Assembly: GCF_025231485.1 (NCBI RefSeq)
Contig: NZ_CP104003.1
Coordinates: forward strand, 4,045,960 to 4,109,959
Length of the DNA stretch: 64,000 bases
Source: Salinirubellus salinus
GTDB taxonomy: Archaea; Halobacteriota; Halobacteria; Halobacteriales; Haloarculaceae
Reading direction: 5' to 3'
The notes under the pieces are model-generated. The model saw only the letters and a list, made by a program, of their open reading frames with translations, searched no databases and was not told where the DNA came from. Positions within the stretch are counted from its first letter, which is position 1, and every line of letters starts with the position of its first letter. Below, piece after piece: positions 1 to 22,658 of the stretch. The translations under genes were made by a program, and so were the position numbers.

Positions 1-488
1 AGGTCCTCCATGCTGTTGGTCATCGCGCCGGCACCGAGGCTGGTGCGGAGCGCCCATACCGTCGAGGCGTGACACATCCGCGTGCAGTTGTCGACGTTGT
101 TGGTGCCGTAGCGGCGCGCGAGCTTCTGGAGGAGGTAGTTCTCCTCGTTCATCGTCTTCGAGGACCCGAAGAACCCCATCGCGTCGGGGCCGTGCTCCTC
201 GCGGATGCGCTCCAACTCGTCGACGATGCGGGAGTAGGCCTCCTCCCACGTCGCCTCGCGGAACTCGCCGTCCTCCTTGACGAGCGGGTCGGTCAGGCGG
301 TCCTCGTGGTCGACGACTTCGGTCGCCGCGCCACCCTTGATACAGATGCGGCCCTCGTTGACCGGCGCGTCGCCCCACGGCATGAACCGCATGTCGCCGG
401 GTTCGTCGCCGGGCATCACCTGGATGCCGCAGCCGACGCCACAGTACGGACAGATGGTCTTGACGGGTTCCTTCTCCTCACTGGACAT
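1..488 (-). CDS. fdhF: Formate dehydrogenase alpha subunit, N-terminal part (cut by window edge)
   Basis: Molybdopterin oxidoreductase that oxidises formate to CO2. Only about 162 N-terminal residues lie in the window; the rest runs off the left edge. Seen: an N-terminal [4Fe-4S] motif with Cys13, Cys16 and Cys20 (CPYCGVGC) and Cys49 (GRICIKGG), then the formate dehydrogenase active-site signature NCTRMCHAS near residue 140, where the second Cys sits at the position of the catalytic Cys/Sec. The start at 488 is chosen because GGAGGT lies about 8 bases upstream. No Tat signal is seen, so the enzyme is probably cytoplasmic. It faces formate-THF ligase two genes away, which fits a formate node in C1 metabolism. 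Confidence 0.88.
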   Translation of the reverse strand, partial: MSSEEKEPVKTICPYCGVGCGIQVMPGDEPGDMRFMPWGDAPVNEGRICIKGGAATEVVDHEDRLTDPLVKEDGEFREATWEEAYSRIVDELERIREEHGPDAMGFFGSSKTMNEENYLLQKLARRYGTNNVDNCTRMCHASTVWALRTSLGAGAMTNSMED

Positions 489-659
489 GGGTCATACCTC
501 CGGACAGTGCGTTCTCATGTGCGACTCTCTGTCAGAGACGTGGCGGTGCCACGGGCATCAATCTTCCGCGAGCAGGGGGGCCACCGGGGCCCGTACGGGG
601 CGATTCGACCTCGCTCGCCGGGGAAACGTTGAGGCCCGTGGCCGGGCAACAGGCGGCCG

Positions 660-1220
660 ATGGACCTGACCCGTGCGGTCGTCGAACGGGCGGCCGGGGA
701 GTACGAGGCCGTCCAGCCGATGTACACCGTCGAGCAGGAACACGTCGAGATGCTCCCCGAGACGTTCCGCAGCGGCGAGTACGGCTGGCGCGACGCCGAG
801 TGGGTCGTCCAGTGGCACTACCGCCGGTTCCTCGGCGCGTACCCGAACCGCGACCGCCGGGCCGCCGAGGGCGAGTACGACGAGAACGAGTTCGAGGACG
901 TCCTCGACGCCGTCGCGGGGGCCGTCGACGCCGAGGACACCGCCGCGCGACTCGGCGCGCTCACGGCCCTCTCGGGCGTCGACGTGCCGGTGGCCTCGGC
1001 GTTCCTCCTCTTCCTGTCGCCAGAACGGTACGTTGTGGTCGACGAGTGGACGTGGGGCGTGCTCCACGAGGCGGGGGAACTGGACGACCCCTATCCCGCG
1101 CCACCGGACGTCGAGGCCTACCTCGCGTTCGACGCGGCCTGCACCCGCCTCCGCGAGCGGTTCGACGTCGACGCGTGGACGCTCTACCGCGCGCTGTGGG
1201 TACTGGGCGGCGAGGCCTAG
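660..1220 (+). CDS. Conserved hypothetical protein, possible helix-hairpin-helix fold
   Basis: A 186-residue acidic protein with no signal peptide or membrane span. I do not recognise a named family. Around residues 105-130 the stretch GVDVPVASAFLLFLSPERY followed by VVDEWTW resembles the helix-hairpin-helix region of small DNA-glycosylase-like proteins, where a Gly-Val-Pro hairpin is followed by a Pro-Glu-Arg-Tyr/Phe segment and an acidic residue. That is a structural guess, not a function. The gene is convergent with the flavin oxidase downstream and overlaps its stop codon region by about 4 bases. It is divergent from formate dehydrogenase, with 171 bases between them. Confidence 0.7.
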   Translation: MDLTRAVVERAAGEYEAVQPMYTVEQEHVEMLPETFRSGEYGWRDAEWVVQWHYRRFLGAYPNRDRRAAEGEYDENEFEDVLDAVAGAVDAEDTAARLGALTALSGVDVPVASAFLLFLSPERYVVVDEWTWGVLHEAGELDDPYPAPPDVEAYLAFDAACTRLRERFDVDAWTLYRALWVLGGEA

Positions 1221-2578: not shown

Positions 2579-2585
2579 CCCCGAC

Positions 2586-4301
2586 TCAGAACAGCCCGGA
2601 GATGGTGCCGTCCGCGTCGATGTCCATGTTCGCCGCGGCGGGTTCGCTCGGGAGGCCCGGGAGCGTCAGCACGTCACCCGTCAGCGCGACGAGGAAGCCG
2701 GCGCCGGCCGAGGGGTACACCTCCGTCACCTCCAGCGTCCAGTCGTCCGGCGCGCCCTTCTTGCTCGGGTCGTCGCTGAGCGAGTGGAACGTCTTGGACA
2801 TGCAGATGGGCACGTCGTCGAAGCCGTGGTCGGTCAGGCGCTCGATGTCGTCCTCGGCGCTCCCGTGGTACTCCACGCCGTCGGCCCCGTAGATCTCCGT
2901 GGCGATGGTCTCGATCTTCTGCTTGATGGGGACGTCGAGGTCGTAGAGCGGCGTGAAGTCCGAGGGCGTCTCGGCCGCGTCCACGACCTGCTCGGCCAGC
3001 TCGACGCCGCCCTCGCCGCCGTCGCTGAACACGTTCGACTCGGCGGCACGGATCCCGAGGTCCTTGCAGTGGTCGATGACTGCCTGCACCTCCGCGTCGG
3101 TGTCCCCGGGGAAGCGGTTCACCGCGACGACGACCGGGACGCCGAACTTCTGGAGGTTCCGGACGTGCTTGTCGAGGTTCGCCAGCCCGCGCCGGACCAT
3201 CCCGACGTCCTCCGCCTCGAGTTCGTCGAGGTCCGGCGGCCACATCTCCTGCCCGTGGTACTTGAGCGCCCGGACGGAGGCGACGAGCGTCACCGCGTCG
3301 GGTTCCATCTCGCCGAACCGGCAGACGATGTTCATGAACTTCTCGGCCCCGAGGTCGGAGCCGAACCCGGCCTCGGTGACGAGGTACTCGGAGAGGCTAG
3401 AGGCGAGTTCGTCCGCCATCAGCGAGTTCGTGCCGTGGGCGATGTTGGCGAACGGGCCGCCGTGGACGAACGCCGGGGTCCCCTCGATGGTCTGGACGAC
3501 GTTCGGCTTCAGCGCGTCGCGCAGGAGGATGGTCACCGGCCCGGTCGCGTCGATGTCGTCGGCCGTGACGGGTTCGCCGTCCTCGTCGTAGGCGACGATG
3601 ATGCGCGAGACGCGCTCTTTCAGGTCCTGCAGGCTGTCGGCGAGACAGAGCACCGCCATCATCTCCGAGGCGGCGGTGAGGATGAACCCGTCCTCGCGGG
3701 GGATGCCGGTCACGTCCCCGCCGAGGCCCACCACCGTCTCGCGTAGCACCCGGTCGTTCATGTCGATGGCGCGGGGCCAGTTGACCCAGTTGACCGCGAT
3801 GTCGAGCTCGTTGCCCTGCTTGATGTGGTTGTCCAGCATCGTCGAGACGAGGTTGTGTGCCGAGGTGAGCGCGTGGAGGTCACCCGTGAAGTGGAGGTTG
3901 ATGTCCTCCATCGGGAGTACCTGCGACCACCCGCCGCCCGCGGCACCACCCTTCACGCCGAACACCGGGCCGAGCGACGGCTCGCGGATGGCGATGAGGG
4001 CGTCCTTGTCGATGTGGTTGAACGCCTGACCGAGCCCGACCGTCGTCACCGTCTTCCCCTCGCCCAGCGGTGTCGGGGTCATCCCGGTGACGAGGACGAG
4101 CTTCCCGTCGTCCTCCTTCTCCGCCGTCGCCCGCTCGATGGCGTCGAGTTTCACCTTCGCCTTGTACTCCCCCTGGAGCTCCAGGTCCTCGCGGTCGAGG
4201 CCGAACGGTTCGACCACGTCCGCGATGTGGCGCTTCTCGACTGACTGTGCGATCTCGTAGTCGTTCGGTATCGAGGAACCGCTCTCGTCTGGGGGTGACA
4301 T
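2586..4301 (-). CDS. fhs: Formate-tetrahydrofolate ligase
   Basis: Cytoplasmic ATP-dependent synthesis of 10-formyl-THF from formate and THF (the reverse also runs). About 571 residues, matching the usual 556-residue family length. The P-loop-like TPTPLGEGKTVTTVGL lies around residues 75-90, followed by the conserved REPSLGPVFGVKGGAAGGG and HFTGDLHALTSAHNL. I chose the ATG at 4301 over an in-frame start at 4346 because a TATA-like TTGATAA is centred 27 bases upstream of 4301, the normal spacing for a leaderless haloarchaeal message. With formate dehydrogenase and FolCP close by, it forms the folate C1 branch of this region. Confidence 0.95.
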   Translation of the reverse strand: MSPPDESGSSIPNDYEIAQSVEKRHIADVVEPFGLDREDLELQGEYKAKVKLDAIERATAEKEDDGKLVLVTGMTPTPLGEGKTVTTVGLGQAFNHIDKDALIAIREPSLGPVFGVKGGAAGGGWSQVLPMEDINLHFTGDLHALTSAHNLVSTMLDNHIKQGNELDIAVNWVNWPRAIDMNDRVLRETVVGLGGDVTGIPREDGFILTAASEMMAVLCLADSLQDLKERVSRIIVAYDEDGEPVTADDIDATGPVTILLRDALKPNVVQTIEGTPAFVHGGPFANIAHGTNSLMADELASSLSEYLVTEAGFGSDLGAEKFMNIVCRFGEMEPDAVTLVASVRALKYHGQEMWPPDLDELEAEDVGMVRRGLANLDKHVRNLQKFGVPVVVAVNRFPGDTDAEVQAVIDHCKDLGIRAAESNVFSDGGEGGVELAEQVVDAAETPSDFTPLYDLDVPIKQKIETIATEIYGADGVEYHGSAEDDIERLTDHGFDDVPICMSKTFHSLSDDPSKKGAPDDWTLEVTEVYPSAGAGFLVALTGDVLTLPGLPSEPAAANMDIDADGTISGLF

Positions 4302-4324
4302 GTCCCGACGTTCCGGAGACGCGG

Positions 4325-4331
4325 TTATCAA
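4325..4331 (-). promoter_or_regulatory. TATA box for fhs
   Basis: TTGATAA read on the minus strand, centred 27 bases before the ATG at 4301. This spacing suggests a leaderless transcript starting at or next to that ATG. Confidence 0.5.
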
Positions 4332-4560
4332 TGCTCGCGTACACATCAGCAGTCGGTGAGGTCGTGGTTCGTCGCCTCGGCGTTCCTGACCGGTCTCGTG
4401 GCCCGTTCGGCGAGGGATGGGTGGCTATCACGGGCCTGACGGGTGGTGGACGCCCGCCGCGTGCCGGTCGCGGCGCTGGCCCCATCCTGACAGTGAAATG
4501 GTAGAGCGTGGAGTCCGGTGCGCTGGTGGTCGTCGTCTGCCCCCGGCTCCCTTCGCTCGG

Positions 4561-6006
4561 TCAGTCTCCGCCGTGCTCGGCGACGTAGGCCGCGAGTTCC
4601 CGTTCGGCGTCGGCGTCCATCGGGGGACGCTCGTAAGCCGCGAGCCGCCGCTCGACCCGTTCGTGGGCCTGTTCGAACGCCGACTTCCCGCCGTCGTCGG
4701 CCCAGTCGCGGTGCGCGCGCTTGTCGACGAACGCCGACCGGAAGAAGCCGCTCTCGCCGCCCGCCGCCGAACCGGCCGCGCCGACGAAGTGGCCGGCCGG
4801 GTCCGTCCCCCCGATGCGTTCCAGGTCGAGGTGTGCCTCGTCCACGGCGAACCCCTCGCGGAACCGGTCGAGACACCGCATCGCCTCGCAGTCGAGGACG
4901 AACTTCTCGGGCGAGATGGTGGAGTACGACTCGAGGATGCCGGCCGCGTTGAGGACGAAGTCGATGCCGGCGAAGTCGGTCACCGTCTGGAGGAACATCG
5001 ACTCGAAGCCGCTCTGGTGGTCGACGGACTTCGCGTCCGAGAGGCCGCCGCCGGCCCGGGACGGGAGGCCGTAGAACGTGGCGAGTCGCGCGGCGGCGGC
5101 GACGAACAGCGCGGACTCCGGCGTGCCGATGGAGAGCGAGCCGTACCGGGGGTCAACGGTCGCCGTCGGCACGCCGTAGACGACGGGCGTGCCGGGGTTG
5201 ACCAGTTGCGTGAGCGTGATGGCGAGGAGGTTCTCGGCGTTGGCCTGCGCCAGCGACGCCGCGAGCGTCGGCGGCCCGGACGCCCCGGCGACGGTGAACG
5301 AGGAGACGATGGGGGGCTGCCCGTGCTCCGCGTACGTCAGGAGGCCACCGAGCATCTCGCGTTCGAGGCTCCGGGGCGGGACCGTGTTGACCAGCCCGGC
5401 CACGTAGGGCCGTGCGAGCTCCGGGTCGCCCGTGGCGATACCGACCATCTCCATGCAGGCACGGGCGCGTTCCTCTCCGTAGGTGGGACCCATCACCGGC
5501 TTGTCCGTGAGCGTCAGCGCCCGCTCCAGCATCTCGTAGTGTCCCGTCGCCTCGTCGATCGCCGGCGGCTCGCAGACCCGATAGCCCGTACAGCCGATGG
5601 CCGTCTCGACCTGCGCGAGCTTCACGAGCCGCTCGTAGTCAGCGCGCGTGGCCGGACGCCGGCCCTCCGCGTACGTCCGGACGTTCGGGGGACCGTAGCC
5701 CGGCGTGCGGACCGGCGGGCCGTCTCCGCCGACGACGACGTCGTTGGCCGGGTTCCGCGCGTGGAGGGTGAACGACGAGGGGGCGGCTCGGACGGCGTCC
5801 TCGACGACCTCGCGGGGGACGGTGACCACGTCCCGCTCGTCGACGTGGCCGCCGTGGCTCTCGAGCAGCGAGCGGGCACGCTCGTGGCCGAGCTTGACGC
5901 CGAACTCCTCGAGGATGCGCATGGACGCTTCGTGGATGGCCGTACACTCCTCCTCGTCGAGTCGGTCGAGCGACGGCAGGCCGGTGGCCGTCCCGTCGTG
6001 ATCCAT
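4561..6006 (-). CDS. Trimethylamine methyltransferase (MttB) family protein, non-pyrrolysine
   Basis: A 481-residue member of the MttB superfamily, whose characterised members transfer a methyl group from a methylated amine or betaine to a corrinoid protein. Family landmarks are EASMRILEEFGVKL near the N-terminus, the middle GYGPPNVRTYAEGRRPAT, and the central core with GGLSDAKSVDHQSGFES. There is no in-frame TAG, so this is the MtgB-like (glycine-betaine type) branch rather than the pyrrolysine enzyme. The start at 6006 is supported by a TATA box (CTTATCC) about 28 bases upstream. It is divergent from folCP. No corrinoid protein or corrinoid reactivase gene is in the window, so the methyl acceptor is unknown. 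Confidence 0.88.
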   Translation of the reverse strand: MDHDGTATGLPSLDRLDEEECTAIHEASMRILEEFGVKLGHERARSLLESHGGHVDERDVVTVPREVVEDAVRAAPSSFTLHARNPANDVVVGGDGPPVRTPGYGPPNVRTYAEGRRPATRADYERLVKLAQVETAIGCTGYRVCEPPAIDEATGHYEMLERALTLTDKPVMGPTYGEERARACMEMVGIATGDPELARPYVAGLVNTVPPRSLEREMLGGLLTYAEHGQPPIVSSFTVAGASGPPTLAASLAQANAENLLAITLTQLVNPGTPVVYGVPTATVDPRYGSLSIGTPESALFVAAAARLATFYGLPSRAGGGLSDAKSVDHQSGFESMFLQTVTDFAGIDFVLNAAGILESYSTISPEKFVLDCEAMRCLDRFREGFAVDEAHLDLERIGGTDPAGHFVGAAGSAAGGESGFFRSAFVDKRAHRDWADDGGKSAFEQAHERVERRLAAYERPPMDADAERELAAYVAEHGGD

Positions 6007-6030
6007 GCCCCAACAGTACCCCCATTCGCC

Positions 6031-6040
6031 GGATAAGGGT
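6031..6040 (-). promoter_or_regulatory. TATA box for the MttB-family gene
   Basis: ACCCTTATCC on the minus strand, centred about 28 bases before the ATG at 6006, consistent with a leaderless start. Confidence 0.5.
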
Positions 6041-6192
6041 TCGCGTCGGCACACCGTTCTGCCGAGGCGAACCGGCCGCTGTCGGGCGGTCGTGGGCCGT
6101 CGGTGACCGGCCGTCCTCCCGTGCGCGTCCGCGCGTTCCTCCACCTGCACGTGGGCTGAGTGGTTGTGCTTCGACACCCCCCGAATCCGGGA

Positions 6193-6199
6193 TTTAATA
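6193..6199 (+). promoter_or_regulatory. TATA box for folCP
   Basis: TTTAATA ends 28 bases before the ATG at 6227. It supports that ATG as the start and argues against an in-frame ATG at 6164 that lies upstream of the promoter. Confidence 0.6.
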
Positions 6200-6226
6200 C
6201 GCTGTCTGTCACAACGTCTCGGAGTC

Positions 6227-8656
6227 ATGGAGTACCACGAGGCGGTGAACCGTCTGGAGCGACTACGGCGGCTCCGGCCGAAACTGGGGGTGGGGACCAC
6301 CGCCTCCCTGCTGGAGACGCTGGGGGACCCACAGGAGGGCCTCCCGGCGGTGCAGGTCGCCGGGTCCAACGGGAAGGGGAGCACCGCGCGAACGCTGGAG
6401 CGCGTCCTGCGCGAGGCGGGGCTGACCGTCGGGCTCTACACCTCGCCGGACCTGAACGACCTGCGCGAGCGCATCCGCGTGCGAGGCCAGAAGATACCGA
6501 AACACGAGGTGTCGCGGTTCGTCGAGGTGGCGTGGCCGGAGATCGTCGACCGGTCGGTCGAGGGCGACGAACCGACGTTCTTCGAGACGTTCACCGCGCT
6601 GGCGCTCTGGCGCTTCGACCGCTCGGACGTGGACGTGGCCGTCCTCGAGGTGGGCATCGGCGGGCGCTACGACGCGACGAGCGTCGTCGACCCGGTGGCC
6701 AGCGCCGTCACCAGCGTCAGCCTCGAACACACCGAGATCCTCGGGGACACCGTCGAGGAGATCGCCCGCGACAAGGCCAACGTCACCCCCGCGGAACGAC
6801 CCCTCGTCACGGGCGCGACGGGGGCGGCCCTCGACGCCATCCGCGCCGACCACCCCGTCCTCACCGTCGGCCCGGAGGACGCGGACGTCTACGCCAGCGA
6901 GGGCGAGGTGGTCTCGCCGACGGCGTCGAAACTCTCGCTCGTCGGCCCGGACTGGGCCGTCGAGACGCGGACGCCCCTGCCGGGCGCGCACATGGCGACC
7001 AACGCGGGCATCGCCGCGACGCTCGCCAGACAGGTCGGGGACGCACTCGGCGTGGACGTGACCGAGGCCGACATCGCCGCGGGCGTCCGGAACGTCCACG
7101 CTCCCGGCCGGTTCGAGGTGATGGACCACGCGCCACTGACCGTCCTCGACGGGGCGCACAACCCGGACGCGTGTGTGAAACTGGCCGACACGCTCGAACG
7201 GCTCGAGTACGACTCGCTCCACCTCGTGTTCGGCGCGATGCGCGAGAAGGACCACCCCGCGATGTGCCGCGCGCTCCCGGCCGCCGACCGGGCGTACCTC
7301 GCGGAACCCGACGTGGAACGTGCCCGCGGGACGGACACGCTGGCGACCGTCTTCGACCGGGAGACGGACGCCGCCGTCGACACGTTCGACTCCGTCCTCG
7401 GGGCGCTGGAGGCCGCCTGCTGGGCGGCCGACCCGGGCGACTGTGTCCTCGCCACGGGGTCGCTCTACACCGTGGCGGAGGCCCGCGACCACTGGACGCG
7501 GAGTCCGCGTGTCGTGCGTACCGACTCGCACGGGGCCGCGCGTGAGGCGCTGGCCAGCGCGGACGTCCCCCGCGCCGTCCGGACGGACCGGGTGGACGCG
7601 ATGGTCGACCGGACGCTCCGGTTCCACGTCCGCCGCGGGCGGGCGGGCGAACTGGTCGGTCGGATGCGCTCGCTCGGCGGGACGGGCGCCGTCTCGGGTA
7701 TCGAGGCGGCCGACCAGCACGTCGAGGTGGTGCTGACGGGGACGCTCGACCAGTTCCGCGACCTCGTGCGGTACGTCCGGGCCTGCCCCGACGGCCGTCG
7801 CCTCGCGGGACGGGTGAACCGGGCGCTCGGTATCGGCACCGACGAGACGCCCGCCGCCTACCCCTGGCACGACGGCACCGCCGTCATGGGCATCCTGAAC
7901 GTCACACCCGACTCCTTCCACGACGGCGGGGAGTACGACACCGTCCCGGCGGCCGTCGACCGGGCCGAGGCGATGGTCGTCGACGGCGCGGACATCGTCG
8001 ACGTGGGTGGGGAGTCGACGCGCCCCGGTGCGGACCCGGTGCCGGCGGCCGAGGAGCGCGAGCGCGTGGTCCCGGTCGTCGAACGACTGGCCGACCTCGA
8101 CACGTTCGTCTCGGTGGACACCCGGAAGGCGCTGGTGGCCGAGGCCGCACTCGAGGCCGGCGCCGACATGGTGAACGACGTGACCGGCCTCGGGGACGCG
8201 GCGATGCGCGAGGTGGTCGCCGCCCACGACGTGCCGGCCGTCGTGATGCACAGCCTCTCGGCACCGGTGGACCCGCACCACCGCTACGGTTACGACGACG
8301 TGGTCGACGACGTCCTCGAGGGGCTGACCGAGCGGGTGTTGCTTGCCGAGCGTGCGGGGATCGACCGCTCGAATCTGCTCCTCGACCCGGGGCTGGGGTT
8401 CGGCAAGCGGGCGGCCGAGAGCTTCGAGCTCCTGGACCGACTCTCCGAGTTCCGGGCGCTGGGGACGCCCGTGATGGTGGGACACTCCCACAAATCGATG
8501 TTCGAGGCGGTGGGGTGCGGTCCCGACGAGCGACTCGCACCCACCGTCGCCGCGACGGCCCTCGCGGCAGAACGCGGCGCGGACGTCGTCCGGGTCCACG
8601 ACGTGGCCGAGAACGTCGCCGCCGTCGAGACGGCCCGGAAGACCCGGGGGGAGTGA
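6227..8656 (+). CDS. folCP: Bifunctional dihydrofolate synthase / dihydropteroate synthase
   Basis: An 809-residue fusion making folate in the cytoplasm. Residues 1-420 are a FolC-type Mur-ligase module with the ATP loop AGSNGKGSTA (residues 45-54), which ligates glutamate to pteroate. Residues 430-550 are a linker domain. From residue 554 there is a complete FolP: MGILNVTPDSFHDGG, then GADIVDVGGESTRPGA and a C-terminal HSHKS pterin/phosphate loop. FolP condenses p-aminobenzoate with the pterin pyrophosphate. This fused form is known from Haloferax. Its place between the MttB-family and GcvT-fusion genes suggests that the C1 carrier here is true folate. Confidence 0.93.
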   Translation: MEYHEAVNRLERLRRLRPKLGVGTTASLLETLGDPQEGLPAVQVAGSNGKGSTARTLERVLREAGLTVGLYTSPDLNDLRERIRVRGQKIPKHEVSRFVEVAWPEIVDRSVEGDEPTFFETFTALALWRFDRSDVDVAVLEVGIGGRYDATSVVDPVASAVTSVSLEHTEILGDTVEEIARDKANVTPAERPLVTGATGAALDAIRADHPVLTVGPEDADVYASEGEVVSPTASKLSLVGPDWAVETRTPLPGAHMATNAGIAATLARQVGDALGVDVTEADIAAGVRNVHAPGRFEVMDHAPLTVLDGAHNPDACVKLADTLERLEYDSLHLVFGAMREKDHPAMCRALPAADRAYLAEPDVERARGTDTLATVFDRETDAAVDTFDSVLGALEAACWAADPGDCVLATGSLYTVAEARDHWTRSPRVVRTDSHGAAREALASADVPRAVRTDRVDAMVDRTLRFHVRRGRAGELVGRMRSLGGTGAVSGIEAADQHVEVVLTGTLDQFRDLVRYVRACPDGRRLAGRVNRALGIGTDETPAAYPWHDGTAVMGILNVTPDSFHDGGEYDTVPAAVDRAEAMVVDGADIVDVGGESTRPGADPVPAAEERERVVPVVERLADLDTFVSVDTRKALVAEAALEAGADMVNDVTGLGDAAMREVVAAHDVPAVVMHSLSAPVDPHHRYGYDDVVDDVLEGLTERVLLAERAGIDRSNLLLDPGLGFGKRAAESFELLDRLSEFRALGTPVMVGHSHKSMFEAVGCGPDERLAPTVAATALAAERGADVVRVHDVAENVAAVETARKTRGE

Positions 8657-8891
8657 CCGGGCGCCGAACCACGACCTGTCAGGCCCTGGTGGGGTTGTGT
8701 GGACGTGCGGGTGCGCGGGCGCACCGGGCCGCCTGCTCCGGACTCGTCGTCGCTCCCCACACTGCCCGAGTGAGTCCCCGGATGGCGCGAGGATGGGCGT
8801 CTCGTCCGTGTTCGGGGTCCAGTGGGGTGGACTCGGCGTGGCGCAGCGACTACCGGTTCGACCCGCCGAGTCCCCGTGTTCCACGCACATC

Positions 8892-8917
8892 GTATACGGA
8901 ATCTGTCAGGTATACGG
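8892..8917. repeat. Direct repeat GTATACGG x2, candidate operator
   Basis: Two exact copies of GTATACGG 18 bases apart, the second ending 3 bases before the TATA box. Two half-turns-related sites directly upstream of the BRE/TATA would suit an activator or repressor of the methyl-amine oxidation operon. Confidence 0.4.
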
Positions 8918-8920
8918 CCT

Positions 8921-8928
8921 TTTAATAT
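8921..8928 (+). promoter_or_regulatory. TATA box of the DMGO-like/etf operon
   Basis: TTTAATAT, 29-36 bases before the ATG at 8957. A leaderless transcript from it would begin at the 29-codon ORF rather than at the large gene at 9043. Confidence 0.6.
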
Positions 8929-8956
8929 CGGGCGAGACCCGAACTCGTGAACGAAC

Positions 8957-9046
8957 ATGAGATTGCCAGACCCTAGCACGGGTATCGCGTCCGCAGACCT
9001 GACGTCGGGCGAGGCAGCCCCGGCGACGGCGGGTGGTCGGCGATGA
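8957..9046 (+). CDS. Possible 29-residue leader ORF
   Basis: ATG at 8957 opens a 29-codon frame, beginning MRLPDPSTGIAS and ending AGGRR. Its TGA overlaps the ATG of the FAD-GcvT gene (ATGA at 9043-9046). The TATA box lies at the right distance for leaderless initiation at this ATG, and the ATGA overlap suggests translational coupling. The peptide resembles no family I know and has no obvious run of a regulatory amino acid. It could instead be a 5' leader of about 90 bases with a chance ORF. Confidence 0.4.
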   Translation: MRLPDPSTGIASADLTSGEAAPATAGGRR

Positions 9047-11652
9047 GTTCGAAGCAGTTCCCGGCCTCGGCCGAGACGGTCATCCTCGGCGCGGGTATCG
9101 TCGGGAACAGTCTGGCGTACCACCTCGCTCGGTACGGTCGGGACGACATCGTCCTCGTCGACAAGGGGCCGCTCCCGGACCCGGGCGGCTCGACGGGCCA
9201 CGCCTCGAACTTCCTGATGCCGGTCGAACACTCGAAGGAGATGACCCACCTCACACGGCGCTCCATCGAGCAGTACAAGGAGTTCGACACGTTCGTCAAC
9301 TCGGGCGGTATCGAGGTGGCCCGCACGGACGAGCGGGTCGAGGAACTGAAACGCCGGGTGCAGTCGGCGAAGGCGTACGGCGAACCGGCCGAACTCCTCA
9401 CGCCCGAGGAGGTGGAGGAGATGCTCCCGTACGTCAACACGGACATCATCAAGGCGGGGTTCTACAGCCCCGGTGCCGGCACCTGCGACCCGCTCCGGGC
9501 GGGCGAGGTGATGCGGGCCCGGGCCGACGCCATCGCCTCGGGCGAGGTCGCCCCCGAGAACGTGGGCGAGGTGCAGGCCGACGGCGGCGTCCAGACCCAG
9601 CGACCCGAGAGCACGGGGGGGCTCCACGTCTCGCCGAACACGGAGGTCCTCGACATCCACGTCGAACACGGTGAGGTACAGGCCGTCGAGACGGACCGCG
9701 GGACCGTCGAGGCCGACGAGGTCATCATCGCGGCGGGGCTCTGGAGCCCGAAGCTCGCGGAGATGGCGGGCGTCGACATCCCGCTCACGCCGGCCGTCCA
9801 CCAGATGGTCAGCGTCGGGCCCATCTCCTTCTTCGAGGACTACGAGGGAGAGATCTCGTTCCCGGTGCTGCGTGACATGGACACCCAGATGTACGAGCGA
9901 CAGCACGGCAACGACCTCGAGGTCGGCTCCTACCAGCACCGGCCCATCCTCTGGGACGTCGACGACGTGCCCTCCATCGACGAGGCACCGCTGTCGCCGA
10001 CCCAGCCGCCGCTCACGGACGACGCGTTCGAGCAGTCGATGGCCGACGCCCTCGAGATCGTGCCGGATCTGCTCGACGACCCGAACGCGGGCATCCGCCA
10101 CGAGATAGACGGCCTGCTCTCGCAGACGCCCGACGGCGGCCCGCTCCTCGGCCCACTGCAGGACGTCGAGGGGCTGTGGTCGGCCGCGGCCGTCTGGATC
10201 AAGGAGGCGCCGGCCATCGGCGAGGCCATCGCCCAGCTGATGACGCGGGGCTACTCCGACATCGACATCCACGCCTCGGACGTCAACCGGTTCTACCACT
10301 ACGGCACCTCGCGGGAGTTCGTGAAGAACCGCGCCCACGAGGGGTTCAAGAAGACGTACGGCATCGTCCACCCGGCCGAGCAGTGGCAGTCCTCGCGGCC
10401 GCTCCGGACGAGTCCGTTCTACCACCGGCAGGACGACCTCGACGCACGGTTCTTCGAGGCCGCCGGCTGGGAACGACCCCAGTGGTACGAGTCCAACGAG
10501 GACCTCCTCGAGGAGTACAGCGAGGAACTCGAGGGGCTGGACCGCCCCAACGAGTGGGACTCCCGCTGGTGGGACGAGACCATCCTCGCCGAGCACCTCC
10601 ACATGCGTGACAAGGTGGCGATGGTCGGCGACATGGGCTTCGGCATCTTCGACCTCCGTGGCGACGACGTGACGGCGTACCTCGAGGGGATGGTCGTCGG
10701 CCGCGTCGACGTCGACGTCGGCAAGACCGTCTACACGCCCGTCCTCGCGCCGAACGGGGGGTTCGTCTCGGACCTCACCATCGCGCGGCTCGGCGAGGAC
10801 CACTACCGGGTCGTGACCGGCGGTGCGGCGGCCGGCTCCGACCGTTCGTGGTTCCAGAGCCACATCCCCGAGGACGCGGACGTGAAGCTCATCGATAACA
10901 GCGAGGCGCTCTGCACGCTCGGGGTCTGGGGGCCGGACGCCCGCGACCTCGTCCAGAGCGTCACCGAGGAGGACGTGTCCCACGAGGCGTTCCCGCCGTA
11001 CACGGCCCAGGAGATCACCGTCGGCGAGGTGGACGCGTGGGCGATGCGCCTCTCGTACGTCGGCGAACTGGGCTGGGAGATATACGCCCCGATGGGGCAG
11101 GGCCAGCGGCTCTGGGACGTCCTCTGGGAGGCCGGACAGGAGTACGACGTCCGCCCGGTCGGGATGGGCGTCTACGGGACCACCGGCCGACTGGAGAAGG
11201 GCTACCGCCTGTTCGGCCACGAACTCGAGTCCGAGTACGACCCCTCGGAGGCCGGGCTGACCTTCCACGGTGTGAAGGACGCCGACTTCGTCGGGAAGGA
11301 GGCGTACGCCGAGGCCATCGAGGAGGACGACGCGGCGACGCTCTGTACGCTCTCGGTCGACGACCACACCTCGGAGTCCGGCGAGCGCCGGTTCATGCTC
11401 GGCGGTGAACCCATCGTCGACGAGGACGGCGAGGTCATCGTCGACGAGGAGGGCCGCGAGTCCTACGTGACGAGCGCGGGCACCGGCCCGACGGTCGGGA
11501 AGCACCTGCTGATGGCGTACCTGCCGCCGGAGTACGCGGAGGAGGGCCAGCAACTGCAGGTGGAGTACTTCGACGAGACGTACCCGGTGACCGTCGAGGT
11601 GGCCGGGAGCCGACCGCTGTTCGATCCGGAGAACGAGCGCATCCGGTCCTGA
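9043..11652 (+). CDS. FAD-dependent oxidoreductase-GcvT fusion (dimethylglycine/sarcosine oxidase-like)
   Basis: An 869-residue protein with a DAO-type FAD domain (GAGIVG, residues 16-21) and GSTGHASNF, in which His53 sits where dimethylglycine and sarcosine dehydrogenases attach FAD covalently. From about residue 500 a complete GcvT/aminomethyltransferase-like domain follows, with RLSYVGELGWEIYAP and a C-terminal barrel. Relatives oxidatively demethylate N-methylglycines and pass the formaldehyde-level carbon to THF as 5,10-methylene-THF. ETF genes directly downstream suggest electrons go to ETF, as in dehydrogenases, rather than to O2. The exact substrate is inferred, not shown. Confidence 0.88.
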   Translation: MSSKQFPASAETVILGAGIVGNSLAYHLARYGRDDIVLVDKGPLPDPGGSTGHASNFLMPVEHSKEMTHLTRRSIEQYKEFDTFVNSGGIEVARTDERVEELKRRVQSAKAYGEPAELLTPEEVEEMLPYVNTDIIKAGFYSPGAGTCDPLRAGEVMRARADAIASGEVAPENVGEVQADGGVQTQRPESTGGLHVSPNTEVLDIHVEHGEVQAVETDRGTVEADEVIIAAGLWSPKLAEMAGVDIPLTPAVHQMVSVGPISFFEDYEGEISFPVLRDMDTQMYERQHGNDLEVGSYQHRPILWDVDDVPSIDEAPLSPTQPPLTDDAFEQSMADALEIVPDLLDDPNAGIRHEIDGLLSQTPDGGPLLGPLQDVEGLWSAAAVWIKEAPAIGEAIAQLMTRGYSDIDIHASDVNRFYHYGTSREFVKNRAHEGFKKTYGIVHPAEQWQSSRPLRTSPFYHRQDDLDARFFEAAGWERPQWYESNEDLLEEYSEELEGLDRPNEWDSRWWDETILAEHLHMRDKVAMVGDMGFGIFDLRGDDVTAYLEGMVVGRVDVDVGKTVYTPVLAPNGGFVSDLTIARLGEDHYRVVTGGAAAGSDRSWFQSHIPEDADVKLIDNSEALCTLGVWGPDARDLVQSVTEEDVSHEAFPPYTAQEITVGEVDAWAMRLSYVGELGWEIYAPMGQGQRLWDVLWEAGQEYDVRPVGMGVYGTTGRLEKGYRLFGHELESEYDPSEAGLTFHGVKDADFVGKEAYAEAIEEDDAATLCTLSVDDHTSESGERRFMLGGEPIVDEDGEVIVDEEGRESYVTSAGTGPTVGKHLLMAYLPPEYAEEGQQLQVEYFDETYPVTVEVAGSRPLFDPENERIRS

Positions 11653-11720
11653 ACCGGCGGCGCTCGACCCGGATCCGACTCGCCCCTGACGACCACACGA
11701 CCCACAGCACACGAAGGAAC

Positions 11721-12482
11721 ATGGATACACTAGCTTGTGTCAAGCGCGTACCGGACACCGGTGCGAAGATCGTACTGACCGACGACCAACGAGCCATCGA
11801 CACGTCCAACCTCGGGTTCACGATGAGCCCGCACGAGGAGTGTGGTCTGGAGGAGGCGGTGCAGATCGCCCAGGACACCGGCGGGACGGCGACGGCACTC
11901 ACCCTCGGCACCGCGGAGGCCGACGAACAGCTCCGGACCGCGCTGGCGATGCAGGCCGACGAGGCGGTGTTGCTCGAGACCGAGGAGCGCGAGTGGGGGC
12001 CCCTCGACACCGCGACGGCCATCGCCGACTACGTCCGGGAGACGGACGACGAGTACGACCTCCTCCTGTTCGGCACGGAGTCGGCGGACAACGGGAACTA
12101 CCAGGTCCCCATCCACGTCGCCACGCAGCTCGGCCTGCCGGTGGTGACGGCCATCAAGCACATCGAGGTGGAAGACGACACGGTGGTCGCCCGACGCGAG
12201 GCGGGCGGCGGCGAGGAGGTGTACGAGCTGGAGACGCCCGCCGTCGTCGGCGTCAAGGAGGGACTGAACGAGCCGCGCTACCCGTCGATGCGCTCGAAGA
12301 TGCGCGCCCGGCAACAGGAGGTCGAACAGCACCACCCCGAACCGGGCGGCCGCGACCGGCTGGAGATGGTCCGGCTGGAGGCGCCCGAACAGGACGAGGG
12401 CACCGCCGAGATACTCGGCGAGGGGCCGGAGGCGACGCCACGTATCGTCGAGATACTGCAGGAGGACCTGGAGGTGCTCTGA
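11721..12482 (+). CDS. etfB: Electron transfer flavoprotein beta subunit
   Basis: A 253-residue ETF small subunit that binds AMP/FAD jointly with the alpha subunit and shuttles electrons from flavin dehydrogenases. The N-terminus MDTLACVKRVPDTGAKIVL, NLGFTMSPHEECGLEEAV and the recognition-loop region PAVVGVKEGLNEPRYPS are diagnostic. It starts 68 bases after the FAD-GcvT gene with no clear promoter between, so co-transcription is likely and the FAD-GcvT protein is its probable electron donor. The C-terminal extension after residue 200 is acidic, as usual in haloarchaea. Confidence 0.93.
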   Translation: MDTLACVKRVPDTGAKIVLTDDQRAIDTSNLGFTMSPHEECGLEEAVQIAQDTGGTATALTLGTAEADEQLRTALAMQADEAVLLETEEREWGPLDTATAIADYVRETDDEYDLLLFGTESADNGNYQVPIHVATQLGLPVVTAIKHIEVEDDTVVARREAGGGEEVYELETPAVVGVKEGLNEPRYPSMRSKMRARQQEVEQHHPEPGGRDRLEMVRLEAPEQDEGTAEILGEGPEATPRIVEILQEDLEVL

Positions 12483-12484
12483 CG

Positions 12485-13453
12485 ATGGTGCTCGCACTGG
12501 TGGAACACGAGGCGGGCGTGCCGGAGGACTCGTCGCTGGAGATGCTGACGCTGGCCCGTGGCGTGGCCGAGGAGACGGACGAACCGCTCACGGCCGTCGT
12601 CGTGGGCGCGGAGGCGGCGGGCGTGGCCGACGACCTCGGTACCTACGGCGTGGAGACGGTGTACGTCGTCGACCACGAACGACTCGACGACTACGCGCCG
12701 GTGGCGTGGGCCACGAGCGTCGACCAGCTGGCGGCCGACCTCGACCCGGACGCCGTCGTCGCGCCCGGGAGCACCCGTGGGCACGAGGTGCTCGCGCACG
12801 TCGCGGCGCGCCGAGAGCAGTCGATGGCCGCGAACTGTATCGAGGTGACGACGGGCGAGGAGTACGAGCTCACCCGCCAGCGCTGGGGCGGGACGCTGCT
12901 GGAGGAGGCTCGTCTCGGCGGCGACACGAAACTGCTGACGGCGGCCGCTCACGAGGTGAGCGCCGAACCGGCCGACTCGCCGACGGAGCCTGCCGTCGAG
13001 TCGTTCGACCCGTCGCTCGACGAGGAGGCGTTCGAGGTGCGCGTGACGCGCCACGAGGCGTCCGACGTGGAGGGCGTGCCACTCGGCGAGGCACGCGTCG
13101 TCGTCGGCGGTGGTCGCGGCGTGGGCGGCCCCGACGGCTACGACCAGCTCGAGGAGCTCGCGGACCTCCTCGGCGGGGCGGTGGGTGCCTCCCGCGCCGC
13201 GGTCAACGAGGGGTGGCGGCCCCACGACGACCAGGTGGGACAGACGGGGGCGAAGATCTCGCCGAAGCTCTACGTCGCCTGTGGCATCTCGGGTGCCGTC
13301 CAGCACATGGTGGGCTGCAAGGGTGCCGAGAACATCCTCGCCATCAACACCGACCCCGAGGCGGCCATCATCCAGAAGGCACGTTGGGCCGTCGTCGGTG
13401 ACCTCCACGAGGTGGTGCCGGAGCTCAACGAGTCCATCCGCTCGGCCAACTGA
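12485..13453 (+). CDS. etfA: Electron transfer flavoprotein alpha subunit
   Basis: A 322-residue ETF large subunit, the FAD-binding partner of EtfB. The C-terminal FAD-binding signature is intact: GQTGAKISPKLYVACGISG followed by AVQHMVGCKGAENILAINTDPEAA. The ATG at 12485 is 2 bases after the etfB stop, which indicates one message. EtfAB normally hands electrons to an ETF-quinone oxidoreductase (FixC/FixX type), and none is present in the window. Confidence 0.93.
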   Translation: MVLALVEHEAGVPEDSSLEMLTLARGVAEETDEPLTAVVVGAEAAGVADDLGTYGVETVYVVDHERLDDYAPVAWATSVDQLAADLDPDAVVAPGSTRGHEVLAHVAARREQSMAANCIEVTTGEEYELTRQRWGGTLLEEARLGGDTKLLTAAAHEVSAEPADSPTEPAVESFDPSLDEEAFEVRVTRHEASDVEGVPLGEARVVVGGGRGVGGPDGYDQLEELADLLGGAVGASRAAVNEGWRPHDDQVGQTGAKISPKLYVACGISGAVQHMVGCKGAENILAINTDPEAAIIQKARWAVVGDLHEVVPELNESIRSAN

Positions 13454-13899: not shown

Positions 13900-15633
13900 A
13901 TGAGTGACGCGCCGTCGCGGATGCTCCGAGTCGACCTGTCGGCGGAGCGTGTCGTCTCGGAGACGGTGCCCCCGTCGTGGCGGCGGCGCTACCTCGGGGG
14001 GAAGGGCCTCGGCGCACGCTACCTCTACGACGAGCTGGCGCCCGGGACGGACCCGCTGGGCCCCGGGAACGCGCTCCTGTTCGTCCTCGGCCCACTCACG
14101 GGGGCGCTCCCGGGCGAACAGCGCTACGCGGCGGTGACGAAGTCGCCGCTCACGGGTGCGTTCCTCGACTCCTACGCCGGGGGCACGTTCCCCGCGAGGC
14201 TGGCAGGGTCGCTCGACGACCACCTCGGGGTGCTGGTGACCGGACGCGCCGAGGCACCGGTCCGGCTGGTCGTCGGCGACGGCGACGCCCGCGTCGAACC
14301 CGCCGAGACGTGGGGCGCGGACGCCGTGGAGACGGCACGCCAGTTCCCGGACGCGAGCGTCGCCTGCATCGGCCCGGCGGGCGAGAACCGCGTCACCTTC
14401 GCCACCATCGCCTCCGACGAGGCGGAACACCACGCCGGACGCGGCGGGGCGGGTGCCGTGATGGGTGCCAAGCGGCTGAAGGCCGTCGTCGCGTCCGGCG
14501 ACCCACCGGCGGTCCCCGAGTCGGTGGCCGCATTGCGCGACCGGGACACCGGGCGGTTCACCGAGAGTCACACGGGGCGGTGGCTGGCGGCCTCGGGGAC
14601 GCTGGAGACGGTCGACTTCGCCGACGAGACGGGCGTGCTCGCGGCCCGTGGCTGGCAGGAGCGGGGCTTCGACGGCGCCGACGACGTGGGTATCGATGCG
14701 GCCCGCGAGGCGGCGACGGGCCGCGAGCACGACGGCCCCGTCCCCGGCGGCTTCCGGGTCGAGACGGCCGCCGGCGAGACCGTCCCGCGGGGTGCCACCG
14801 GGATGAGTCTCGGGGCGGGCCTCGGCATCGACGAGTTCGACGCCGTCGCCGAACTGGGCGAGTGGTGCAACCGCCTCGGGCTCGACCTCATCGACGGGGG
14901 GAACGCGGTGGCCTGGGCCGCCCGTGCCGTCGAGGCGGGCCTCCTCGACCGCGACCTGTCGTTCGGCGACCCGGACGGTGCCCGGGCGCTCCTCGGCGAG
15001 ATCGCGACCCGCGAGTCGAGGGTAGGCGACGCGCTCGCCGACGGGGTGGCGGTGGCCGCGAGGCGGTTCGGCGGCGAGGCGTTCGTCCCCTCGGTCAAGG
15101 AGATGTCGCTGCCCGCGTACGACCCGCGCGGGGCGGCGAGCATGGCGCTGGCGTACGCGACGAGCGACCGGGGTGGCTGTCACCGTCGTGCCCGTCCGGT
15201 CGAACGGGAGGTGTTCGACGGGCCGTGGGACCCGGACCGGGCGGCCGAGGCCGTCGTCGCCGCACAGGACGCCCGCGCGCTCCGCTGGAGTCTCGTGGCC
15301 GACGACTTCGCGGGCGAGGCGGTGGACGTCCCGGCGTGGCTGGCGGCGGTCGGAGCCCCGCACGGCGACCTCCCGCGGACCGGCGAGCGGGTCTGGACGC
15401 TCGTCCGGCTGTTCAACGCCCGCGAGGGGTTCGACCGGTGCGACGACTCGCTCCCGGCCGTGTTCGCGGGCGACGGTGGCGTCGACCCGTCGCGGTTCGA
15501 CGCGATGCTGGACGCCTACTACGCGACCCGGGGCTGGAGCGAGGCGGGGCTGCCGACGCGGGAGACGCTGGTTCGACTCGGCCTCGACGACGTGGTGGAC
15601 GCCGCGACACCGGTGGGCGACCCCGGGCCGTGA
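13900..15633 (+). CDS. Aldehyde:ferredoxin oxidoreductase family protein lacking Fe-S ligands
   Basis: A 577-residue AOR-family protein, close to the usual 600. Conserved features are YLGGKGLGARYLYDEL, the N-terminal fold with KSPLTGAFLDSYAGG, the middle EWCNRLGLDLIDGGN, YATSDRGGCHRRARP and the C-terminal LFNAREGFDRCDDSLP. Known AORs hold tungsten or molybdenum bis-pterin plus one [4Fe-4S] cluster on a CxxCxxxC motif and a later Cys. Here the first site reads HDGPVPGGFRVE and the later one SLVADDFAGE, so no cluster can be bound in the usual way. Either it accepts electrons differently or it is no longer an oxidoreductase. Substrate unknown. Confidence 0.85.
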   Translation: MSDAPSRMLRVDLSAERVVSETVPPSWRRRYLGGKGLGARYLYDELAPGTDPLGPGNALLFVLGPLTGALPGEQRYAAVTKSPLTGAFLDSYAGGTFPARLAGSLDDHLGVLVTGRAEAPVRLVVGDGDARVEPAETWGADAVETARQFPDASVACIGPAGENRVTFATIASDEAEHHAGRGGAGAVMGAKRLKAVVASGDPPAVPESVAALRDRDTGRFTESHTGRWLAASGTLETVDFADETGVLAARGWQERGFDGADDVGIDAAREAATGREHDGPVPGGFRVETAAGETVPRGATGMSLGAGLGIDEFDAVAELGEWCNRLGLDLIDGGNAVAWAARAVEAGLLDRDLSFGDPDGARALLGEIATRESRVGDALADGVAVAARRFGGEAFVPSVKEMSLPAYDPRGAASMALAYATSDRGGCHRRARPVEREVFDGPWDPDRAAEAVVAAQDARALRWSLVADDFAGEAVDVPAWLAAVGAPHGDLPRTGERVWTLVRLFNAREGFDRCDDSLPAVFAGDGGVDPSRFDAMLDAYYATRGWSEAGLPTRETLVRLGLDDVVDAATPVGDPGP

Positions 15634-21050: not shown

Positions 21051-21512
21051 TCACTCCGCGTCCGGGTCTGCCGCGCCGATGCCGCGTGCCAGCGCGACGA
21101 GGTAGCTCAGCCCGCGCCGGACCTCCGGGTCGCGCAGCGACTTCAGCAACGCCATCGCCGACGCCGACTCGGGGTCGGCTCGCTGGGCGTTCCCGACGCC
21201 TTCGAGCAACCGCGCGAGGCCGTCGCGGGTGTCCGGGTCGCCGGCGGTGTCGGCCAGTTCACCGACGTTCGACCCCATCCGGGCGAGCGAGACGACCATC
21301 TCGTCGGTCATCGCGTCCTGCCCGAGCGCGACCACGTCCAGCAGTTCGTTGACCGAGTCCAGTCGCTCGACGAACGCCGCGACGGCCTCGGGGTTCTCCT
21401 CGATGGCCGCGACGAGACGTTCGTCCGCGAGCGCCTCGGTCGGCTCCGGCGTCTCGGTGGTCTCCTCCGGTCGTTCGGTCTCCATCGCCTCGTTGGTGCT
21501 TCCGTCTGTCAT
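21051..21512 (-). CDS. DUF1641 domain protein
   Basis: A 153-residue acidic cytoplasmic protein with a low-complexity Glu/Thr N-terminus (1-30), followed by the DUF1641 helical domain (VERLDSVNELLDVVALGQDA, then LKSLRDPEVRRGLSYLVALA). In many bacteria and archaea DUF1641 proteins are encoded next to sulfide:quinone-oxidoreductase-like or FdhD/formate genes and probably help assemble or anchor them. Here the ATG is 1 base past the stop of the SQR-like gene, so the two are translated together. Confidence 0.85.
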   Translation of the reverse strand: MTDGSTNEAMETERPEETTETPEPTEALADERLVAAIEENPEAVAAFVERLDSVNELLDVVALGQDAMTDEMVVSLARMGSNVGELADTAGDPDTRDGLARLLEGVGNAQRADPESASAMALLKSLRDPEVRRGLSYLVALARGIGAADPDAE

Positions 21513-21513
21513 C

Positions 21514-22658
21514 TCAGATCAACCCCCGTGCCGTCAGCCAGTACGACTCGTTGTACGCCAGTTTCGCCCAGTGAAGCGACTTCGACGGCGGCTTCGGCGC
21601 CGGCGGGTTGGTGTAGTCGAACTCCACGTAGGAGGCCGAGTCCATCCCCGTCTCGACGAAGCAGACCGTCTTGCCGTCGTAGGTGGCCGTCGCCGGCCGG
21701 TCGTGGACGGCGCTCGCGACGCGCTGGGCCACGACGCCGGCCTCGTAGTGCGCGACGCTCCCCGCCTTCGGGACGCCCGTGTTCGCCGTGTCGCCGAGCG
21801 CGTAGACGTCCTCGGCGTTCGTCGCCGCCAGCGTCTCCTTGTCGACGTCGACCCAGCCACGGTTGCCGAGTCCCGCCGCCTCGATCACCTCGCTCCCCCG
21901 GTGGGGCGGGATGGCGACGAGCAGGTCGTAGTCGAGTTCCGTCCCCTCCATCGTCTCGAGCACCTTCGCATCCGGGTCGACCGTCTCCGGGTTGCAGAAC
22001 GTCTCGACGTTGATGCCACGCTCCTCCATCAGCGAGTGTGCCCACTCGGCGATGTGGGGGTTCCCGTGGACCCGCTGGATGGGGTAGGTGTAGGTTATCT
22101 CCACGTCCTCGCGCAGGCCGCGCTTCCGGAACCAGTCGTCGGCCATGAAGACGAACTCGAGCGGCGCCGCGGGACACATGTGCGGCGACCCGATGACCGA
22201 GAGCACGAGGTGCCCCTCGGTGAACGAGAGCAGCTCCTCCTGCAGCGCGAGGGCGCCCTCCTCGCTGTAGAAGTCGTGGCCCCCTCGACGAGGCCGGGGA
22301 CCTCCTCGCGGTCGAGTCGCGACCCGGTCGCCAGCACGAGGTGGTCGTACCGGCGCGGGCCGTTCCCGTCGCGGTAGACGAGGCGCTTCTCGTCGGTGTC
22401 GATCTCGGTCACCCGGTCCTCGACGAGGTGGACCCGTCGGTCGAGCAGTTCGCGGAGCGGCCGCCGGCCGTCCGACGGCTCGCGGAGCCCGAACGGGACG
22501 TAGAGCCACACGGGTTTGTAGACGTGGTCGGGGCCGTCGTTGACGACGGTCACCCGTACCTCGCCCGCGTCGATCTCGGGGCCCAGTCGCTCGGCCAGGT
22601 CGTTGGCCAGGACGGCCCCGCCGGTGCCACCGCCCACGACGACGATCTCCTCGGTCAT
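21514..22658 (-). pseudogene. SQR-like NAD(P)/FAD-dependent oxidoreductase, frameshifted as sequenced
   Basis: Sulfide:quinone-oxidoreductase-like flavoprotein of about 381 residues once repaired. The N-terminus has the FAD fold VVVGGGTGGAVLANDLAE. A middle SPHMCPAAPLEFVF carries the family's conserved Cys, and LGDTANTGVPKAGSVA is the second FAD motif. The frame breaks at a five-C run (22280-22284 on the plus strand): adding one G on the coding strand joins VPGLVEGG to HDFYSEEGAL exactly. It overlaps tusA upstream (ATGA) and DUF1641 follows. It probably oxidises sulfide or persulfide with quinone as acceptor. It is very likely intact in the organism. Confidence 0.85.

Follow-up and report, generated by a model that had tools for sequence, protein, structure and literature searches.

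A haloarchaeal homolog of aldehyde oxidoreductases that lacks the cluster cysteines, its linkage to formate dehydrogenase and a candidate role as a cofactor carrier

Tungsten oxidoreductases and the maturation of formate dehydrogenase

FdhD is the standard maturase of formate dehydrogenase (FDH), and FdhD and XdhC are cofactor-binding sulfurtransferase chaperones. According to the part used here of a 2023 review on molybdoenzyme maturation (PMC10609526), halobacteria often have FDH genes but fdhD is absent, leaving it open which proteins insert and sulfurate the cofactor in these organisms, and in what way. The absence of fdhD is already in print; what is new here is a count over 391 of 391 genomes and a candidate, an AOR/WOR-family protein without the ligands of the usual [4Fe-4S] cluster. 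Together with YqeC and MobA, it provides a concrete candidate set for the cofactor gap of halobacterial FDH.

In the aldehyde oxidoreductases (AOR), the conserved second shell consists of Thr243, Glu313, Tyr427 and His448, with Glu311, Tyr312 and Tyr452 beside the cofactor, and Glu313 and the relay are central to aldehyde oxidation (consulted sections of PMC12096430; Pyrococcus furiosus AOR numbering throughout). BamB (class II benzoyl-CoA reductase) and YdhV, covered in the same sections, combine the AOR fold with a second shell that departs from the usual residues, as does the protein described here; they are, however, redox proteins with a Cys ligand to the metal, whereas our protein lacks the cluster itself. 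A 2026 survey (PMC13328260), which sorts about 4,000 WORs into 92 clades, assigns to the Class I large subunits tungstopterin and one [4Fe-4S] cluster, and the sections consulted make no mention of a cluster-less branch. We found no cluster-less AOR described in the literature searched, which covered few subscription papers, nor in the consulted sections of PMC12096430. If the protein is indeed non-redox, it would be the first AOR-fold protein without a redox function, as far as could be found in that same literature with its few subscription papers. A second known system is the accessory set of the selenium-dependent molybdenum hydroxylases, YqeC and MocA/MobA, of which YqeC and a MobA-like protein are the commonest cofactor-gene partners of our protein. 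The set accompanies molybdenum hydroxylases in bacteria (PMC11448449, consulted in part), whereas here it is found with FDH and the Cys-less AOR.

Loss of the cluster ligands in one haloarchaeal clade

The protein is encoded in the window, by which we mean the whole stretch of 64,000 nucleotides that was analysed (Table 1). Its reading frame contains full-length Pfam domains AFOR_N (208 bits, cut-off 29.8) and AFOR_C (277 bits, cut-off 27), and is homologous to the AOR/WOR family over its whole length; the Pfam search returned AFOR domains only and no FdhD-NarQ domain (PF02634). The AF2 model (77 sequences, mean pLDDT 95.3) has the three-domain AOR fold and matches FOR and the AORs across 557–568 residues with an rmsd of 1.9–2.0 Å and Z scores of 48–50 (49.8 to 1b25, 48.2 to 1aor). 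A first-pass annotation, made from the sequence alone, had described an AOR-family protein without all four Fe-S cysteines, and the alignment bears this out: HDGPVPGGFRV occupies the stretch of 1AOR C288, C291 and C295, and the position of C494 is D468, within WSLVADDF. It had also counted four remaining Cys, none in a cluster pattern, which is correct; they are residues 156, 323, 427 and 514, and no other Cys is placed by the alignment at the cluster positions. Replacement of the lost ligands by other Cys was considered and rejected. Two of the four are found in every clade member; of these, C323 hardly varies in the AOR family as a whole, and C427 occurs in AOR and the Cys-bearing sister clade too. 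The window's genome encodes four AOR-family proteins, of which the other three retain CxxCxxxC and the fourth Cys.

Table 1. Features of the window discussed in the text (window coordinates)
Feature	Position	Strand	Basis or remark
FDH alpha, N-terminal part; continues outside the window (G000:C1:4044306-4046444)	3..488	-	TIGR01591, 746 bits, cut-off 666
Formate-tetrahydrofolate ligase (FTHFS)	2586..4346	-	Pfam 828 bits; one-carbon context
Dimethylglycine/sarcosine dehydrogenase-like (DMGDH-like; DAO + GCV_T)	9043..11652	+	One-carbon context
Electron transfer flavoprotein beta (EtfB)	11721..12482	+	Adjacent; no homolog >80 bits at 20 other loci
Electron transfer flavoprotein alpha (EtfA)	12479..13453	+	Directly upstream of the target
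Cys-less AOR/WOR-family protein, 577 aa, ATG start (target)	13900..15633	+	AFOR_N + AFOR_C; AF2; FOR/AOR folds
T234, equivalent to AOR Thr243, retained 106/106	14599..14601	+	Clade alignment
Former [4Fe-4S] loop (CxxCxxxC in relatives), now HDGPVPGGFRV, aa 277-287	14728..14760	+	Length varies in the clade
R297-G298-A299, replacing Glu311-Tyr312-Glu313 of P. furiosus AOR	14788..14796	+	Clade alignment
H428, equivalent to AOR His448, retained 106/106	15181..15183	+	Clade alignment
W463..D468, replacing Asp489..Cys494 (second pterin motif including the fourth cluster Cys)	15286..15303	+	W 106/106, D 106/106

The loss is shared by a large group of orthologs. In a set of 148 distinct full-length proteins, CxxCxxxC is absent from 106 of 106 orthologs (53–100% identity) and present in 26/26 other AORs and 16/16 sister-clade proteins; the Cys288 column is misaligned in large alignments, and these counts were therefore taken from a motif search. 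With Cys494 replaced by Asp in every clade member, none has the four Cys that a redox AOR uses for its one [4Fe-4S] cluster. Some match to the target is found in 81 of the 146 genomes of the window's family, the orthologs (59–76% identity) being set well apart from the paralogs (mostly below 40%). Across the class Halobacteria, matches at E≤1e-100 come from 223 of 391 genomes and 58 of 86 genera; rechecking the low scorers left six with only a related Cys-bearing protein and hence 217 genomes with the Cys-less gene, the motif having been read in distinct full-length proteins and the remaining genomes assigned by score or identity. A genome-wide scan, with 80 of 185 relatives listed, gave 40 Cys-less loci, all from haloarchaea, and 40 Cys-bearing loci, most from other archaea and bacteria; the closest relatives among the matches listed are haloarchaea, for example Halorientalis, Natrinema and Haloarcula. 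Carriers of the Cys-less gene include Haloferax massiliensis and Haloarcula argentinensis. So far, and among the 80 relatives listed, the Cys-less clade is known only in Halobacteria.

To see whether such a clade exists, the first-pass annotation had proposed a tree. In ours, built without the cluster columns, the 31 Cys-less rows fall on one side of a branch with SH-aLRT 100 and are sister to a Cys-bearing clade with support 100 (a quick IQ-TREE run, SH-aLRT only, with a long-branch warning), so that the clade exists and has one origin. Since the sister clade retains every Cys and Glu and the Cys-less rows form one clade, the cluster was lost once. No intermediates were seen among the 80 relatives listed, 40/40 Cys-less loci having R-G-A/G/S with D and 40/40 Cys-bearing loci E-Y/F-E with C. 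Over 15 close pairs, dN/dS has a median of 0.13 (range 0.085–0.22), and about 100 columns are invariant among 50 clade members, which points to purifying selection after the loss and to a protein that is functional. A pseudogene or sequencing error is rejected by the 106 distinct intact orthologs together with this median.

The metal-facing residues, which the first-pass annotation did not mention, are replaced as well. In the 106 clade members, Glu311 is Arg in 105 and Cys in the remaining one, Tyr312 is Gly in all, and Glu313 is Ala, Gly or Ser (94/8/4), whereas E-Y-E is retained in 16/16 sister-clade proteins. The whole fold of P. furiosus AOR and FOR (1aor, 1b25), on the other hand, is kept, as are the equivalents of Thr243, Asp343, Arg444, Gly445, Cys447 and His448 (106/106 each), Arg76 (105/106) and Tyr427 (Tyr in 99, Phe in 7); of the conserved second shell, Glu313 is missing from every member. 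A redox AOR binds a W- or Mo-bis-molybdopterin with a bridging Mg; of two segments that we take to be the first and second pterin motifs, the first is kept and the second altered. With Asp in place of C494, the second motif ends like the first, which ends in Asp343, and this replacement probably keeps pterin binding. N93, R182, A183 and D489 of AOR are not conserved in the clade. N93Y, R182H and A183H are common to the clade and its Cys-bearing sister (e.g. L134-L140, L227; L150-L156; 42–47% identical), which shares Tyr93, His182 and an aromatic residue at 489 but retains CxxCxxxC, Cys494 and E-Y-E. Changes unique to the Cys-less clade thus include the cluster ligands and the metal-facing acids, together with E236, E276, R429 and several others (15 positions in the list). 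The former cluster loop varies in length, and certain genomes from a single genus (L142, L143) have long acidic inserts in it; both features fit a segment that no longer holds a cluster.

By fold and sequence, the protein is an AOR/WOR homolog, but it lacks those hallmarks of a redox AOR that were tested and is thus not classed here as an aldehyde oxidoreductase. The first-pass annotation had suggested a non-redox or alternative-acceptor branch, and its non-redox half is the better one, because the catalytic Glu and its neighbours were lost together with the cluster. Its other half, an aldehyde oxidoreductase whose electrons go, with no cluster in between, to a different acceptor, for example the adjacent Etf, has in its favour that EtfBA lies directly upstream in the window; we consider it highly improbable, since Glu313 and the relay, central to aldehyde oxidation according to the consulted part of PMC12096430, are gone, and EtfB, although adjoining in the window, has no homolog above 80 bits at any of 20 other loci compared. 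Etf is thereby rejected as a conserved partner, in a comparison that picked the EtfB frame and not the EtfA frame separately.

The pocket also bears on two other readings. One is a cofactor-bearing non-redox tungsten enzyme, in which the bis-pterin metal would act as a Lewis acid in hydratase- or lyase-like chemistry tied to formate or one-carbon metabolism. R297, G298, R429, W463, D468 and H428 are pocket residues and are sharply conserved in the clade, as an active site would be; acetylene hydratase is a precedent (PMC12096430, consulted in part), and FTHFS, the DMGDH-like protein and FDH give the target a one-carbon context in the window. The general acid/base residues Glu311 and Glu313 and Tyr312 are gone, however, no metabolic gene among the compared neighbours recurs as regularly as YqeC, MobA and FDH, and the near-obligate partner YqeC is annotated for cofactor biosynthesis; we thus regard such an enzyme as unlikely. 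The other is a protein without a single client that would store or buffer tungstate, molybdate or the free pterin cofactor. The basic substitutions E311R and R429 would suit it, as would the transporter genes of the tungstate/molybdate/phosphate kind at one locus, L045, where a solute-binding protein, a permease and an ATPase lie between the Cys-less gene and YqeC/MobA. A transporter is annotated at that locus only, with a lone ATPase at a second (L054), and the link to FDH would be left unexplained, which makes storage very unlikely.

Linkage and co-occurrence with formate dehydrogenase and YqeC

Gene neighbourhoods were compared at 64 Cys-less loci chosen before their neighbours were inspected (the window, 20, 40 and 3), at 20 loci with a Cys-bearing paralog, each from a genome in which the Cys-less gene is present as well, and at 7 sister-clade loci. 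At least one of FDH-alpha, YqeC and MobA lies within 8 kb at 52/64 Cys-less loci (38/64 within 1 kb) versus 0/20 paralog and 0/7 sister loci, which is linkage to cofactor genes and to a molybdoenzyme of the kind expected for a maturation factor. Taken singly within 8 kb, an FDH-alpha homolog is found at 41/64 loci (those with either FdhA or FdhA2; 40 FdhA and 40 FdhA2 matches), YqeC at 34/64 and a MobA-like protein at 28/64. Among the neighbours, the FDH-alpha at L047 scores 755 bits (cut-off 666), YqeC 186 bits with TIGR03172 (cut-off 73; annotated as a cofactor-biosynthesis protein) and MoaA 379 bits (cut-off 325), while MobA, at 104 bits, is below its NCBIfam cut-off of 152 and matches Pfam NTP_transf_3 at 125 bits. 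Other neighbours of the 64 loci are a DUF7124 protein (27), a TorD-like chaperone (26), an HdrA-like ferredoxin protein (25) and MoaA (3), none of which occurs at the 20 paralog or 7 sister loci. The DUF7124 gene (L042:9497-10501, plus 26 further loci) lies close to the Cys-less AOR and often immediately follows it.

Twelve of the 64 loci, including the window's own, have none of FDH, YqeC and MobA within 8 kb. In the window, 13.4 kb separate the target from the FDH-alpha gene, which is read from 488 on the minus strand out of the window, and YqeC and MobA adjoin each other at about C1:1012000 of the same genome. Positions 1-13453 form a one-carbon neighbourhood, with FDH-alpha, FTHFS, DMGDH-like, EtfBA and, at 6164-8656, a fused protein for folate synthesis (Mur-ligase/folylpolyglutamate synthase-like and dihydropteroate synthase).

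Direct adjacency of FDH-alpha in several lineages (14/64 loci within 1 kb; e.g. L104, L105, L039, L072, L083) would also fit a protein without catalysis of its own that has been retained to stabilize a complex, either as a subunit of FDH or a Cys-bearing AOR or as their docking partner. YqeC/MobA neighbours are, however, nearly as frequent as FDH (34 versus 41 of 64 loci within 8 kb), and the gene accompanies FDH types from at least three branches of the FDH tree, which is not what a fixed subunit would do; we consider this reading quite unlikely.

Across the 391 Halobacteria genomes, YqeC is present in 274 and FDH-alpha, at E≤1e-150, in 287. YqeC occurs in 216 of the 217 genomes with the Cys-less gene versus 58 of 174 without it (Fisher p 1e-53), and FDH-alpha in 204/217 versus 83/174 (p 5e-26), the relatedness of the genomes being ignored in both values. 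The sole gene-bearing genome without YqeC is 85% complete, and the 13 without FDH at E≤1e-150 have an FDH-type homolog at E≤1e-60, a limit applied to 18 genomes only that also admits other molybdoenzymes (the sister-only genome G419 then matches too). Six genomes have only the Cys-bearing sister, and five of these have neither YqeC nor FDH at E≤1e-150, while G343 has both. FdhD (PF02634) was found in 0/391 genomes, by a search that was positive in 8 of 14 named control genomes.

FDH is also found without the Cys-less gene, in 83 of the 287 FDH-bearing genomes, 52 of which have YqeC. One universal FdhD substitute is therefore rejected as a role for the Cys-less AOR. Three of these genomes (G011, G024, G121) carry an FDH 84–85% identical to that of the window, so that FDH can persist without the gene; by hand count, window-type FDH occurs in at least five genomes of the family without the gene (G011, G024, G112, G121 and G105, the last 63% complete) versus 18 with it. 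In a tree of 53 FDH proteins, the 12 rows of the window's FDH branch and the 14 of the FdhA2 branch come only from gene-bearing genomes, where the 16 loci without the gene were picked by hand and by frame length and the tree was a quick IQ-TREE run with SH-aLRT only and a long-branch warning. The active-site Cys-His is present in 51 of the 53 rows, the other two being gapped there. In genomes without the Cys-less AOR, YqeC adjoins an FDH frame of 1,066-1,106 codons at L285 (G124), L286 (G203) and L287 (G246), and the YqeC-FDH link thus also exists alone.

A candidate carrier of the bis-pterin cofactor

The reading we favour, with a probability of about 0.5, is that a former tungsten AOR now serves as a non-redox carrier or insertion factor for the Mo/W bis-pterin cofactor, working with YqeC and MobA and with FDH as its likeliest client. 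Cofactor binding, the role in maturation, the client and the order of steps are what we infer from the conserved residues, the neighbours and the co-occurrence. First of all, the AOR shell would still grip a W- or Mo-bis-molybdopterin through the first pterin motif and the equivalents of T243, H448, R76 and R444. Second, with the [4Fe-4S] ligands and the metal-facing Glu-Tyr-Glu exchanged for R297, G298, A299, R429 and D468, the cofactor would be held and not turned over. Third, it could then be processed, by nucleotide addition through the neighbouring MobA and by sulfuration or another step involving YqeC. Finally, the finished cofactor would be handed to FDH in cells without FdhD. Such a carrier accounts for three observations: the electron exit was lost jointly with the catalytic acids, whereas selection still acts on the shell and on part of the pterin site; YqeC almost always accompanies the gene; and the gene is located with FDH in cells without FdhD. 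Its tight conservation beside FDH and cofactor-assembly genes suggests that it may be part of the missing FDH cofactor-loading machinery in haloarchaea.

The carrier reading leaves the 83 FDH genomes without the gene unexplained, including those with window-type FDH in G011, G024 and G121, and the Cys-less AOR may thus serve some FDHs only. It may tune the choice of metal, or another protein may do the same job elsewhere. Also counted against it are the 58 genomes with YqeC but without the Cys-less gene, the 12 of 64 loci without partners, the score of the MobA neighbour below its cut-off and, for cofactor binding, the changes at N93, R182, A183 and D489. The role of YqeC is itself putative; in Clostridioides difficile, deletion of yqeC gave no clear phenotype (PMC11448449, consulted in part).

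A more specific version, which is possible and which we put forward only tentatively, is that this pseudo-oxidoreductase takes over part of the job of FdhD, the AOR pocket carrying the W/Mo-bis-pterin, YqeC and MobA finishing it, and FDH being loaded. The likeness to FdhD and XdhC lies in this proposed role only, holding a pterin cofactor and delivering it to an apo-enzyme, and the proteins have no relation in sequence. If this is true, an enzyme that once used its metal for catalysis would now deliver, as a chaperone, the cofactor of another family. Elsewhere in the window, some 21 kb away from its FDH, the minus strand encodes a DUF1641 protein and, beside it, a Pyr_redox_2 protein (21051-22509); in Bacillus subtilis, FDH has DUF1641 proteins as partners (PMC8808070, consulted in part).
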